A stretch of 64,000 bases of DNA from positions 310,001-374,000 of the forward strand of contig NZ_SZYH01000001.1 of NCBI RefSeq assembly GCF_005298175.1, read 5' to 3'. The translations under genes and the position numbers were made by a program. Source of the stretch: Marinobacter panjinensis. Lineage in GTDB: Bacteria > Pseudomonadota > Gammaproteobacteria > Pseudomonadales > Oleiphilaceae. The notes beneath the pieces were generated by a model. The model made no database searches and was not told the DNA's origin. It worked only from the letters and a program-made list of their open reading frames with translations. Of this stretch, positions 5,502 to 63,603 are shown piece by piece. Position 1 is the first letter of the stretch, and each line of letters opens with the position of its first letter.

Positions 5502-6206
5502 ATGTTAGTGAGCCTTTATCGTTATAACCCGGAAACCGACAACGCGCCTTACATGCAGGACGTGGAAGTCGAGGTTCCGGAAGGCAAGGACCTGATGGTC
5601 CTTGATGTGCTGAACCTCATTAAAGAGCGCGATCCTTCAATGGCCTACCGTCGTTCCTGCCGTGAGGGTGTTTGTGGCTCTGATGGCATGAACATGAATG
5701 GCAAGAACGGTCTTGCCTGCATCACTCCGATGTCGGAAGTGGTCAAGAACAACAAGCTGGTTCTGCGTCCGTTGCCCGGGCTGCCGGTCATTCGGGATCT
5801 GGTGGTCGACATGAGTCTTTTCTACAAACAGTATGAAAAGGTCATGCCGTACCTGGTTAACGACAATCCGGCACCTGCCATTGAACGTCTCCAATCTCCG
5901 GAAGATCGGGAGAAGCTGGATGGCCTGTACGAGTGTATTCTCTGTGCCTGCTGTTCCACGTCCTGTCCGTCGTTCTGGTGGAATCCGGACAAGTTCATCG
6001 GTCCTGCCGGCCTGCTCCAGGCCTACCGCTTCCTGGCGGACAGCCGCGATACGGCTCAGGAAGAACGGCTTGCCAATCTGGATGACCCCTTCAGCGTATT
6101 CCGCTGCCGCGGCATCATGAACTGTGTCAGTGTCTGTCCCAAAGGCCTGAACCCCACAAGGGCAATCGGCCATATCCGCAATCTTCTGCTTCAGCGGGCG
6201 ACGTAA
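5502..6206 (+). CDS. sdhB: succinate dehydrogenase iron-sulfur subunit
   Basis: Electron-transfer subunit linking SdhA flavin to quinone. I chose the ATG at 5502 because GAGGGGG lies just upstream and the protein then begins MLVSLYRYNP as usual (234 residues). The [2Fe-2S] cysteines are in SCREGVCGSDGMNMNG (about 53-68) with a further Cys in LACI. The [4Fe-4S] and [3Fe-4S] ligands are in CILCACCSTSCPS and CRGIMNCVSVCPKGLNP. It is the last gene of the sdh operon; a GC-rich hairpin follows at about 50 bp. Confidence 0.97.
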   Translation: MLVSLYRYNPETDNAPYMQDVEVEVPEGKDLMVLDVLNLIKERDPSMAYRRSCREGVCGSDGMNMNGKNGLACITPMSEVVKNNKLVLRPLPGLPVIRDLVVDMSLFYKQYEKVMPYLVNDNPAPAIERLQSPEDREKLDGLYECILCACCSTSCPSFWWNPDKFIGPAGLLQAYRFLADSRDTAQEERLANLDDPFSVFRCRGIMNCVSVCPKGLNPTRAIGHIRNLLLQRAT

Positions 6207-58929: not shown

Positions 58930-59005
58930 GCGGGAATAGCTCAGTTGGTAGAGCACAACCTTGCCAAGGTTGGGGTCGCGAGTTCGAATCTCGTTTCCCG
59001 CTCCA
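58930..59005 (+). tRNA. tRNA-Gly(GCC)
   Basis: 76-nt cloverleaf. Acceptor GCGGGAA pairs with TTCCCGC, discriminator T, encoded CCA. The anticodon loop TTGCCAA gives GCC; the T arm has GAGTTCGAATCTC. It stands 66 bp before tRNA-Cys, likely co-transcribed. Confidence 0.98.
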
Positions 59006-59071
59006 ATCAACACAGTCTCTCAATGCCCACCTGAGAGCATAAAAGTGTCGAATCCCCTTCGAACTTTTACC

Positions 59072-59145
59072 GGCGCGGTGGCAGAGTGGTTATGCAGCGG
59101 ACTGCAACTCCGTTAACGCCGGTTCGATTCCGACCCGCGCCTCCA
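59072..59145 (+). tRNA. tRNA-Cys(GCA)
   Basis: 74-nt cloverleaf. Acceptor GGCGCGG pairs with CCGCGCC, discriminator T, encoded CCA. The anticodon loop CTGCAAC gives GCA; the T arm has CGGTTCGATTCCG. The accessory region with gene debris starts immediately after it. No clear terminator is seen. Confidence 0.98.
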
Positions 59146-59276
59146 TTATTTTTCCATCTACTTATTCCCCCAAGCAATTCTTCACTTGCTTGCGTCTGTC
59201 GACGCTTGATTCGACCCTGAGCTGTTTTCCTGAAATCTGATGCATCGACTCCAGGCGCCCCTGCAGAAACACCTGA

Positions 59277-59654
59277 ATCACTACCTTTGACTGTTTTTTA
59301 GAAGCTTCGCTTGAAGTGGATGAGCAGCTACGGCCGGGAACCTTCAGCCGGGGCACCGAGCTTGGGCTGATCACCGATCTGAGCTTTGGCGCCCGGGAAC
59401 AGATGGGCCTCATCAGCCATCTGGCCTATTCCGATCTGCTGCGGGAAGCAGGAAGGCCAACGCTGGTGATCCTGGACGACACCCTGGTGCGCAGTGATAG
59501 CGACCGCCTGGAAGACATGAAACGCATCCTGTTCGATGCGGCCAGTCGACATCAGATAGTGCTGTTTACTTGCCATCCAGAGAAATGGCAGGACCTGAGC
59601 GTGCCGCCTGTGGCTATTCAGGCATCGAAGGAACAGCGAACTCAGCCCCTGTAG
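59277..59654 (+). pseudogene. C-terminal remnant of a large AAA/SMC-like ATPase
   Basis: About 125 codons follow an in-frame TGA at 59274. The peptide contains TDLSFGAREQMGLISHLAYS (an ABC/SMC-type signature), then LVILDDTLVRSDSDRLEDMK (Walker B and D-loop) and IVLFTCHPEKWQDL. This is the end of a RecF/SMC/YhaN-like ATPase, usually a protein of 700-900 residues. Walker A and all coiled coil are missing. A GTG at 59316 could start a short product, but the lack of an N-terminus makes it a relic. Its junction with unrelated sequence lies near 59298. Confidence 0.75.
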
Positions 59655-59760
59655 CCGGCTTGGTGAGGTTAACACCTAAAAGTCTGTTGGCCGCGTCTTG
59701 TCCGCCTGGTAGCCTGGTCCAGATAGACTTCAGGCTAATTAGTTGCAAGGGAACCATTTA

Positions 59761-62700
59761 ATGAAGGATACGCTGGCCTATTACAACAACAATGCCGATG
59801 CGTTTGTGGAATCAACGTTTCTGGTCAGCATGGAAGAGCTTTACCAGGAGTTCCTGCCGCAAGTTCCTAACGGTGGACACATTCTTGATGCGGGCTGTGG
59901 CTCTGGCCGGGATGCATTGTTCTTCAAGCAGAAGGGTTACCGTGTTTCTGCGTTTGATGGTTCAGACGCCATCGCCTCTCTAGCCCGCGAAAAGACCGGC
60001 TTATCGGTTCAGCATCGCTATTTCTCGGATATATACGAATCCAGTACTTACGATGGTATATGGGCCTGTGCAAGCCTCCTTCACTTGCCACTTGCCGAGG
60101 TACCCGAAGCCATTGGCCGATTGTGGCGTGCCCTGAAACCGGATGGCGTTCTCTACATGAGTTTCAAAATTGGGAAGGGGGAACGCAACCACAATGGCCG
60201 GCACTTTACCGACGCTGATGAATCGATAACCCAGCAGTGGATTCAGGACCTGACGGGATTGGAAGCCTGTCGGATGTGGCGCACTGATGACCAACGACCC
60301 GATAGGAATGAGCAGTGGTTGAACATTCTTTTGACCAAGGTGCCGGTTTCACCGGATAAGTTAACTACGGGCGGTAAAGAACATCATTTTTTGCCGAAAT
60401 TGTGCCAGGCAATTAAAGCTGCTGATCAGGTAGATATGGCAGTAGCGTTTGTAAAAACCACTGGCTTGAATCTCCTGTTCCCGGATTTGGTGGGCGCGCT
60501 GCAGCGGTCCCCTGATCCGGCCCGAATCCGCATTCTCACCAGCGATTATCTGGATATTACCGACACAGAGGCCCTTCGAAAGCTTGTTCTGTTGCATGAC
60601 CATGGTGCCAAAGTGCGTGTCTATCAGAGCAAGGGGAGTAGCTTTCATCTGAAAGCCTATCTCTTCGCTGGTCATGCCGAGAATCAGCAAATGTGGGGCA
60701 GGGCGTTTATCGGCTCCAGCAATATCAGCCGACAAGCGCTTCAGGCCGGGTTGGAATGGAATTATCAGGTGGATTTCCCGCCCGACTCTGGGTACCTCGA
60801 GGCTGCCAGCAGGTTCGATGAACTGTTTCAGCACCCAAACGTGGTGCCACTCACTGACAACTGGATCGATGATTACGAGAAAAGGAGGAAGCCACCAGAA
60901 CAGTCACTGGAACCAGGCAGTGATGAGAAGCAGGAAGTTCCAACACCTAATGAAGTGCAACAGGAAGCGCTAGAGGCGCTGGATCTGACCCGCCAAGAGG
61001 GTTACCGAAGAGGTCTGGTCGTGTTGGCAACGGGGCTGGGTAAAACCTGGTTGTCTGCCTTTGATGCCGTGCAAATGGGCGCACGCCGAATTCTGTTTGT
61101 CGCCCACCGTGAGGAAATTCTTTATCAAGCGGCTGAGACGTACCTGCGGATCAAGCCGAATAGCCGTGTTGGTTTTTACATGGGTAAGCAGCGCGATCGA
61201 ACAGTGGACATCCTTTGTGCTTCGGTGCAAACACTCGGCAAAGAAACGCATCTGGACCGATTCGACCCCCGGCATTTTGACTATATCGTGGTCGATGAAT
61301 TTCACCATGCCGCAGCACCCATCTACCATCGGCTTTTAAGTTACTTTGCGCCCCAATTTCTGCTGGGATTAACGGCAACCCCAGACCGGACAGACCGCTC
61401 GGATATTCTGTCGTTGTGTGACGACAACTTGGTTTTCGAATACCCGCTGTTTGACGGTGTTAAGGGCCAATTCCTGGTGCCGTTTCATTACTACGGTATC
61501 TACGACGAGACGGTCGACTATGCTGAGATCCCCTGGCGCAACGGAAAGTTCGATCCCAATCTGCTTGCCAATAAGCTGGCTACTTATGGACGCGCCAAAC
61601 ACGTTCTCAAAGTATGGAGTGAAGAGAAGCAAAGCCGGACCTTGGCCTTTTGCGTTTCACGGGTTCATGCTGATTTTATGGCGAGCCAGTTTGTAAAAAA
61701 AGGAATCAGGGCGGCAGCCGTTCACGGTGAATCTGAGATGTCTCGTGGCGAAGCCTTGGAGAATTTGGAAAACGGTCAACTCGATGTGATTTTCTCTGTC
61801 GACCTGTTCAACGAGGGTGTCGACCTGCCCGCCATTGATACGGTGCTGCTCTTGCGCCCGACGGAATCCAAAATCCTGTTTCTTCAGCAAATTGGCCGGG
61901 GTCTACGGAAAAGCGTGCCCACTGGGAAAGACAAGCTCGTGATCCTGGATTTTGTGGGTAACCACCAGAGTTTCCTGCATAAACCTCAGGCCCTCATTGG
62001 CCAGGCGATGAATCACCGACAATTAGCCGAGTTTGCCAGGAAAGCTGAAAAGAATCAGTTGGACCTGCCAGACGGATGCTTTATCAATTACGATCTGGAG
62101 GTGATCGACTTCCTGAAGGGTCTTGATCATCAGGGCGCTGAAAAAGACTATCAGGTATTGAAAGATACATTGGGTCGTCGTCCAACACTCAGCGAGTACT
62201 ATCGTTTCGGTGCCAGTATCGCTAAAACTCGCAAGTTGCACGGAAGCTGGTTTGGATTGGTTCGGGACATGGAAGATCTCGCCGAGATTGAGGCAGAACT
62301 ATTGTCCCGCTACGAAACGTTTCTGCTGGAAGTTGAAACGACGGCCATGAGCAAATCGTTCAAAATGATATTGCTAGACGCGTTCCAGCAGTTAGGCGGA
62401 TGGCGTAGTCCACCAAAGCTCTCAAAACTGGCCCAAACATCCTGGGAGACACTGAAACGCCGCCCCAGGCTTTATCAAGAAATTGCTACTTCAGTGAAGG
62501 ACGCGGATGGTTCCTCGGCGCAATGGCAGCAATACTGGAAGAAGAACCCAGTCGATCATTGGACCAATAAGTCGCCAGCTGTTTTTGAGATCGAGAACGA
62601 TCAATTTAAGCCTGTTATTGGGCTGGAAGGTGAGCAGATACCGCCTTTCGAGGAGATGGTGCAAGAGTTAATTGATTATCGTCTGGCTTCCTACGAAGCA

Positions 62701-63603
62701 CGGCAATCTTCCAAGCAAGAGCAGTCTTCGTCTGAAAATGTAGTCCCGGTCACTCCTTCTGGAGCGGAGTTGCCTTACTTCCCATCCTTGAAGATCGCGT
62801 GTGGCCACTTTAGAAGCAGTAACGCTGAAGAACCGGAGTACAGGTCCGTCGGATTGGGTCATGGGCGAATAGAGCCAACTCGCCATTTCATTGCCAGAGC
62901 TTCGGGTAACTCCATGAATGGCGGAAAGCAGCCGATCCAAGACGGTGATTATCTGTTGCTTGAGCGGATCAAGCCGAATCAGGCTGGATCGATAACAGAC
63001 AACACGCTTGCGATTGAACGGATGGATGAGACAGGCGACACGCAATATCTTCTTCGGACGGTTCGTAAATCCCCCGTAGGTGAATATCGGCTCGAAGCTG
63101 CTAATCCAGAGTATGAAGACATTATTGTAACTCCAGAGCTTCTAGAACAGTTTCGAACGTTCGCACGCTTTCGTGAAATTATCGATCCATTGGAAATGGC
63201 TCTCGGACAGGAAATCCCGCGAGAGGAGATTCCGGAGCTATTCGGAGTGACTTTTAATCCCGGCAATTGGCAAAGCGGTCACGTCTTTCTGAAAGATGCG
63301 AATGCGCATGTTTTGCTTGTAACGTTAAACAAGCAGGGCAAAGGGGTCCAGCACCGCTATGTCGATCATTGGATTGATGAGCAAACATTTCATTGGCAGA
63401 GTCAGAACTCAACCACGCCTCAAAACAAGCGCGGTCGGGAACTGGTCGAACACAAAAAGCTTGGACTCTCAGTGCACCTATTTGTCCGCGAGAATAAGCT
63501 GCGTAATGGCAAAGCTGCGCCCTTCACGTATTTTGGTCCAGTTGAATACCAGAGCCATGAAGGTAGCAATCCAATGAGTGTGATATTCAAGCTCAGGAGT
63601 TAG
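59761..63603 (+). CDS. methyltransferase-PLD-SF2 helicase-S24-DUF3427 fusion protein (candidate defence protein)
   Basis: 1280 residues from the ATG at 59761 (AAGGGA ahead). Residues 1-195 are a class I SAM methyltransferase (LDAGCGSGRD at 42-51), without DNA-methylase NPPY/DPPY. Residues about 205-375 resemble a PLD domain (SSFHLKAYLF near 294-303, FIGSSNIS near 316-323). Residues about 400-730 are an SF2 helicase: Walker A ATGLGKT (423-429), DEFHH (512-516), GLTATPDRTD (from 535), QQIGRGLRK (709-717). About 1010-1140 resemble a LexA/S24 domain (ASGNSMNGG, Ser1051). The C-terminus (about 1150-1280: HRYVDHWIDEQTFHWQSQN, in parts) is DUF3427-like. AT-richer codon use and position after tRNAs and debris suggest transfer. 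Confidence 0.85.
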   Translation: MKDTLAYYNNNADAFVESTFLVSMEELYQEFLPQVPNGGHILDAGCGSGRDALFFKQKGYRVSAFDGSDAIASLAREKTGLSVQHRYFSDIYESSTYDGIWACASLLHLPLAEVPEAIGRLWRALKPDGVLYMSFKIGKGERNHNGRHFTDADESITQQWIQDLTGLEACRMWRTDDQRPDRNEQWLNILLTKVPVSPDKLTTGGKEHHFLPKLCQAIKAADQVDMAVAFVKTTGLNLLFPDLVGALQRSPDPARIRILTSDYLDITDTEALRKLVLLHDHGAKVRVYQSKGSSFHLKAYLFAGHAENQQMWGRAFIGSSNISRQALQAGLEWNYQVDFPPDSGYLEAASRFDELFQHPNVVPLTDNWIDDYEKRRKPPEQSLEPGSDEKQEVPTPNEVQQEALEALDLTRQEGYRRGLVVLATGLGKTWLSAFDAVQMGARRILFVAHREEILYQAAETYLRIKPNSRVGFYMGKQRDRTVDILCASVQTLGKETHLDRFDPRHFDYIVVDEFHHAAAPIYHRLLSYFAPQFLLGLTATPDRTDRSDILSLCDDNLVFEYPLFDGVKGQFLVPFHYYGIYDETVDYAEIPWRNGKFDPNLLANKLATYGRAKHVLKVWSEEKQSRTLAFCVSRVHADFMASQFVKKGIRAAAVHGESEMSRGEALENLENGQLDVIFSVDLFNEGVDLPAIDTVLLLRPTESKILFLQQIGRGLRKSVPTGKDKLVILDFVGNHQSFLHKPQALIGQAMNHRQLAEFARKAEKNQLDLPDGCFINYDLEVIDFLKGLDHQGAEKDYQVLKDTLGRRPTLSEYYRFGASIAKTRKLHGSWFGLVRDMEDLAEIEAELLSRYETFLLEVETTAMSKSFKMILLDAFQQLGGWRSPPKLSKLAQTSWETLKRRPRLYQEIATSVKDADGSSAQWQQYWKKNPVDHWTNKSPAVFEIENDQFKPVIGLEGEQIPPFEEMVQELIDYRLASYEARQSSKQEQSSSENVVPVTPSGAELPYFPSLKIACGHFRSSNAEEPEYRSVGLGHGRIEPTRHFIARASGNSMNGGKQPIQDGDYLLLERIKPNQAGSITDNTLAIERMDETGDTQYLLRTVRKSPVGEYRLEAANPEYEDIIVTPELLEQFRTFARFREIIDPLEMALGQEIPREEIPELFGVTFNPGNWQSGHVFLKDANAHVLLVTLNKQGKGVQHRYVDHWIDEQTFHWQSQNSTTPQNKRGRELVEHKKLGLSVHLFVRENKLRNGKAAPFTYFGPVEYQSHEGSNPMSVIFKLRS

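Follow-up and report, generated by a model that had tools for sequence, protein, structure and literature searches.

An S24 module with arginine at the catalytic lysine position within a predicted SauUSI-type restriction enzyme

The 64,000-nt stretch of Marinobacter panjinensis DNA analysed here (the window) carries an open reading frame on the forward strand (59743–63603) that spans 1286 codons from a TTG at 59743 or 1280 codons from an ATG at 59761, with the sequence AAGGGA just 5′ of the ATG. We place the gene at 59761–63603 (+), with the TTG as an alternative start, and the 1280-aa product is arranged as methyltransferase (MTase), PLD nuclease, SF2 ATPase, coupler, S24 module and SRA domain. 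Residues are numbered here from the TTG as position 1, and numbers counted from the ATG are six lower (Ser1057, Arg1105 and Lys1109 become Ser1051, Arg1099 and Lys1103). The peptides quoted in an earlier, sequence-only reading of this DNA lie in frame in this ORF, and the residue numbers given there are exact for the ATG start.

The N terminus is formed by a class I SAM methyltransferase domain (59761–60342, +; Pfam match at residues 47–140) that matches Methyltransf_25/11, is TehB-like and is related to PDB 3e23; by eye, it contains no motif IV of the DNA-methyltransferase type. It is followed by a PLDc_2 nuclease domain (60406–60828, +; residues 222–362) with an HxK motif (H302, K304) and a GSxN motif, in which the H, K, S, N and E residues are invariant in 35/35 aligned rows, and by an SF2 helicase-like ATPase (60946–61911, +; ResIII and Helicase_C, residues 402–723). 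The S24 module (62755–63210, +; Peptidase_S24, residues 1039–1134) is of the LexA/UmuD type, as judged by Pfam, alignment and predicted fold, and has Arg in place of the catalytic Lys; we call it S24R. The C terminus is the final part of DUF3427 (63196–63594, +; residues 1152–1284), an SRA-like target recognition domain. Upstream lies the C-terminal remnant of an AAA ATPase gene (59277–59654, +), which flanks the restriction gene, is outside the system and is represented by a 904-codon ORF in locus L040. A tRNA-Gly and a tRNA-Cys precede this remnant (58930–59654 for the whole group). The upstream AAA gene clusters in six loci, and across the loci compared no conserved neighbour was found besides the methyltransferase.

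By homology, the product of this gene is a SauUSI-type (type IV, modification-dependent) restriction helicase. PADLOC assigns it to mREase_IV (1.9e-109), its best solved relative by sequence is SauUSI (PDB 7clg, 8.6e-86), and 7clg is also the top Foldseek match (8.4e-43) of a model of residues 206–1286, which omits the methyltransferase and in which the placement of the domains relative to each other is weak (pTM 0.53). Like SauUSI, the protein combines a PLD nuclease carrying HxK with an SF2 ATPase in one chain, followed by a helical coupler and a C-terminal SRA-like domain in the same order. An enzyme of this type would be expected to cut DNA containing 5-methyl- or 5-hydroxymethylcytosine in an ATP-dependent manner. 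DUF3427 is matched in Pfam at 1.8e-20, and the SRA-domain profile aligns to residues 816–919 of 7clg at 9e-10. D1208 and W1218 align with Asp-858 and Trp-868 of SauUSI, an equivalence set by profile alignment and counting back from Trp-868, and both are invariant in 15/15 aligned proteins, four of which lack S24. In the SauUSI structure paper, the enzyme is modelled to use this Asp and Trp on the flipped base (PMC7913695). The sequence-only reading had described the protein as a helicase; the helicase-like ATPase is indeed present, but the whole is better described as a restriction enzyme.

The window protein differs from SauUSI by the inserted S24 module and by the N-terminal methyltransferase, neither of which is described for SauUSI in the accessible part of that paper (PMC7913695), where the term 's24' has 0 occurrences. 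A search of the open-licence literature, limited in scope and thus no proof of novelty, found no S24 module in a SauUSI-like or DUF3427 enzyme. The SauUSI identity, the SRA domain, the methyltransferase and the conserved putative scissile pair described below extend the sequence-only reading.

The module was proposed in that reading to follow LexA and UmuD, and this holds up in both profile and structure comparisons. Pfam Peptidase_S24 matches the window module at 1.4e-9 to 4.4e-8, above the curated cut-off, and is found in 51/51 non-redundant modules. An AlphaFold model of the module built with 51 sequences (pLDDT 85.5) superposes on the LexA C-terminal domain (1jhe_A) with Z 15.9 and 2.3 Å over 124 residues, and the predicted fold is that of a LexA-like C-terminal domain. 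A sequence search of the PDB with the module gave 0 matches at E 0.01, and the best PDB profile match, UmuD at E 0.011, puts the Cys-Gly pair of the module on Cys24-Gly25 of UmuD. The modest score of the isolated module against Pfam S24 (37.8 to 38.1 bits) and the empty PDB sequence search would suit the view that the region is not S24 at all, or that a local mutation or a sequencing error in a single genome accounts for its Arg; we regard this view, to which we assign next to no probability, as refuted by the fold match at Z 15.9, the UmuD match at E 0.011 and the recurrence of the Arg in 89/89 modules.

The module shares with UmuD, LexA and lambda CI the fold, the nucleophile Ser, an Ala/Cys-Gly scissile pair and the DGD and N-P-x-Y motifs, but has Arg for the catalytic Lys and Leu for the Thr that precedes it. 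Compared with UmuD and LexA, the alignment also shows two extra residues in a GGK loop that follows Ser-Met. Those proteins are joined to a DNA-binding repressor domain or to a translesion polymerase, whereas S24R modules are joined to nucleases. The five best structural matches of the module model (Z 15.1–15.9) are structures with a docked cleavage loop or bound to RecA, states that we take from PMC12984324 and PMC10020695. Several other LexA entries score 11.8–12.7, and this bias towards the docked state is at most suggestive, since rows within 1 Z are ties and further LexA entries reach 14.1–14.2.

In the active site, Cys1020-Gly1021 (62800–62805, +) aligns with Cys24-Gly25 of UmuD and Ala84-Gly85 of LexA and forms the putative scissile pair, a position occupied by Ala or Cys and then Gly in 44/44 LexA/UmuD sequences. 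Ser1057 (codon TCC, 62911–62913, +) aligns with the nucleophile Ser of all 44, and Arg1105 (codon CGG, 63055–63057, +) falls in the column of the catalytic Lys, which is Lys in 24/24 UmuD and 20/20 LexA sequences from the same taxonomic order, these controls being the top-scoring matches of their searches. Both assignments had been made from the sequence alone, and both are upheld across the family. Outside the window, 96 ORFs collapse to 89 distinct modules, of which 89/89 have the Arg, 89/89 the Ser and 88/89 the Cys. In a set of 87 modules (86 ORFs and the window, with one gene counted twice as L023/L049), the Arg, the Ser and Gly1021 are each present in 87 and Cys1020 in 86. The exception to Cys-Gly is L092, which has Arg-Gly and lies on a 557-codon ORF with the methyltransferase on another ORF.

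The Arg is encoded by 81 CGN and 8 AGR codons, so the residue has been held while the codon varied, and its presence in 89/89 distinct modules can be ascribed to neither chance nor a sequencing slip. The change from Lys to Arg in the S24R module is an old and fixed one. The Thr two residues before the Lys, present in 20/20 LexA and 17/24 UmuD sequences, is Leu in 51/51 modules, which indicates that the base pocket has been rebuilt. The count for Cys-Gly is partly built in, because the patterns of the GTDB scan included ACG[HY]F and ASG[ND], one of which was enough for a match, and Ser1057 and Arg1105 lie outside both; the 14/14 loci found without such patterns (L023–L028, L128–L130 and L225–L229) have Cys-Gly, Ser and Arg. 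Invariant positions are concentrated in the scissile segment (4/6 versus 20/146 elsewhere, Fisher p 0.006), an excess that fits retained chemistry. Of the features of an active S24 enzyme, the module thus has the nucleophile Ser and the Ala/Cys-Gly scissile bond and lacks the general-base Lys. Active S24 enzymes are further marked by RecA-stimulated self-cleavage.

The sequence-only reading had also raised a shifted lysine, in which case the module would be an ordinary S24 peptidase with Lys1109 (63067–63069, +) or Lys1062 as its new general base. Lys1109 is Lys in 86/87 modules and Lys1062 in 83/87. However, Lys1109 lies four residues along the strand beyond Arg1105 at the base position, and its column is Arg or Lys in 19/20 LexA sequences that also have the real Lys. 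Both lysines are missing from L025, where they are T and D and where the Ser, Cys-Gly and Arg are otherwise intact. No column of the module is Lys throughout, which makes a shifted lysine unlikely, and taken with these counts we consider it very improbable.

Arginine at the base position is found elsewhere in the S24 family. In a set of 38 further S24 proteins from the same genomes, hand-picked from lower-scoring rows and often unaligned in the scissile column, the base position is Lys in 29, Arg in 3 and another residue in 6, and all three with Arg are without the Ser. Phage 186 CI, as described in PMC12984324, has an S24-like fold without a canonical active site, has Arg152 at the base position and is without part of the nucleophile segment; its C-terminal domain (2fjr, 2fkd) matches the module at Z 8.9 and 9.2, but the S24R module has its Ser and scissile pair intact. 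Arg alone thus usually marks a dead S24 site, and in S24R modules the remaining site is kept. We found no experiment on LexA K156R in print. Separately, L212 is a LexA-family protein that retains the Ser but has His where the catalytic Lys would be. This Ser/His arrangement recalls the Ser-His signal peptidases.

The module is sparsely distributed. With the genome of the window included, it occurs in 7/194 genomes of the order, 7/369 of the class and 6/398 of the phylum; an eighth match in the class, G602, was rejected as a relative, being a UmuD with Lys. A scan across GTDB species genomes turned up 316 relatives; 80 of these were retained, almost all of them from gamma- and betaproteobacteria. 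Plasmid records match in 3/72,556 cases. A phage origin was rejected, as 37 pattern matches in viral contigs included no relative and none was present among 50,697 phage records.

Most S24R modules reside in proteins like that of the window. The order MTase-PLD-helicase-S24R-SRA accounts for 64/96 module ORFs plus one at a contig edge, and PLD-helicase-S24R-SRA for 8/96 plus two at an edge; four intact proteins (L027, L129, L130 and L232) are PLD-helicase-S24R without SRA, one (L028) is HNH-S24R with the module at its C terminus, and 16/96 ORFs are cut by contig edges or broken. The module is therefore mobile between nucleases, having recombined with PLD-helicases and with an HNH nuclease. When LexA and UmuD are included in the tree, the 51 modules group in a single clade (100/100). 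With midpoint rooting, the HNH and two SRA-less members lie near the base of this clade and a third SRA-less member is nested, positions which imply that the SRA domain was gained or lost more than once.

HNH relatives occur in 5/194 genomes of the order and 1/339 of the class. Within the order set, only the genome of L028 has the module on an HNH gene; the HNH match in the class set (G662) is a 372-aa frame, too short for both HNH and S24R, and none of the 18 plasmid records that matched the HNH-S24R query did so over 80% of the fusion.

These architectures bear on a further reading, in which the module acts in target recognition or recruitment, alongside SRA or instead of it, for example by binding a protein-DNA complex specific to infection or damage. 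The four SRA-less proteins and the HNH nuclease carrying S24R alone at its C terminus speak for such a role, as does the position of the module at the place expected for a recognition domain. Yet in most members an SRA domain is present as well, complete with the Asp and Trp of SauUSI, and we know of no DNA-binding activity of S24 domains, which leaves this role unlikely in our estimation.

The methyltransferase accompanies the module in most cases. After three duplicates were dropped, it is fused in 64 of 93 loci and directly upstream in 14, while 8 loci are cut by contig ends and 7 are without it, so that it is fused or adjacent in 78/85 assessable loci. Three of the apparently separate cases (L062, L076 and L092) are on upstream ORFs of 763–890 codons, a length that suggests broken fused genes. 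The methyltransferase may belong to the core of this family of defence genes. Sibling TehB-like methyltransferases, corresponding to 59761–60342 of the window, are found at 6065–6775 in L027 and 6863–7465 in L028, and also in L129, L130, L234, L235 and L236.

A related arrangement exists on Pseudoalteromonas and other plasmids, where HNH nucleases related to that of L028 stand beside a HIT gene or a methyltransferase related to the N terminus of the window protein; unlike L028, they are without the S24R module. In two Pseudoalteromonas plasmids, the methyltransferase is directly 5′ of the HNH gene. In L018 and L237, a HIT-family gene is directly upstream of the HNH relative, where the methyltransferase would be, and in L018 the HIT gene comes after a SauUSI-like gene. 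The HNH relative in L238, on an Acinetobacter baumannii plasmid, directly adjoins a BREX locus.

Regulation of the gene by the SOS response is not supported. Upstream of S24R genes, LexA boxes are not enriched (8/75 with at most one mismatch, versus 12.9% expected in shuffled sequences), and in the positive control a LexA box is present at 19/20 lexA loci. Docking of RecA by the module would not require SOS expression of the gene.

A type IV restriction enzyme has to spare the DNA of its host, and the known brakes, such as ClpXP restriction alleviation and oligomer switches, have been described for other systems. An S24 fold fused to a type IV enzyme would link that enzyme to the machinery for sensing RecA filaments, or would represent a reuse of the fold for another partner. 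With the cutting machinery otherwise kept, the Arg-altered module suggests a molecular switch that has been repurposed or is unusual.

We build our model on the domain identities, the predicted fold, the fixed Arg, the retained Ser and Cys-Gly and the recombination of the module with other nucleases. The PLD nuclease, the translocating ATPase and the SRA reader of modified cytosine form a SauUSI-type restriction helicase, linked to a methyltransferase and with the S24R module set between the coupler and the SRA domain. The reading that we favour, and to which we give about an even chance, is of a UmuD-like module that has become fixed in a state of no or very slow cleavage and serves as a docking or relay domain controlling the nuclease. 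The module most likely would no longer cleave itself at a useful rate, with its scissile loop kept docked in the Ser/Arg groove, and by docking or relaying a signal it may control or aim the nuclease and so affect DNA cleavage. By homology, its likeliest partner would be either a RecA-ssDNA filament or, within a dimer, another S24 module, and RecA filaments are the obvious candidate. A pseudoprotease with a docked loop is favoured, given that Arg serves poorly as a base and that the preceding Thr has been lost, and the earlier suggestion of a sensor without self-cleavage is compatible with these sequence data. What argues against this reading is that a purely structural module need not keep the Ser and Cys-Gly for so long; their invariance implies a continuing function of the active-site groove.

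The intact Ser and scissile pair keep alive an alternative in which the module works as an active switch and cleaves itself through a Ser-Arg dyad, or through the Ser with help from water and substrate. A signal such as RecA-ssDNA would trigger the cut at Cys1020-Gly1021, part the nuclease-ATPase from S24R-SRA, or the HNH from the module, and thereby disarm or unleash the nuclease. All module-bearing architectures keep the Ser, Cys-Gly and Arg together and have the scissile site at the N-terminal edge of their module, so that cleavage would always free the nuclease. The concentration of invariance in the scissile segment and the docked-state or RecA-bound character of the five top structural matches also fit such a switch. 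The weakness of Arg as a general base, the loss of the LexA Thr before the Lys and the loss of Ser wherever Arg is otherwise seen at the base position (3/3) count against it, and we judge it somewhat unlikely. Were it true, the restriction enzyme would carry its own proteolytic fuse, and its module would be an S24 peptidase that works without a lysine. Whichever reading holds, a natural Lys-to-Arg S24 lineage that keeps its Ser and scissile bond offers a direct test of whether Arg can replace Lys in the dyad.

In one genome, the S24R gene is itself split within the module by about 37.5 kb (L131 at about 8500 and L132 at about 5982). The ORFs adjoining one break are MuA/MuB-like by eye and AATCAT is present at both, as if a Mu-like prophage had inserted there.
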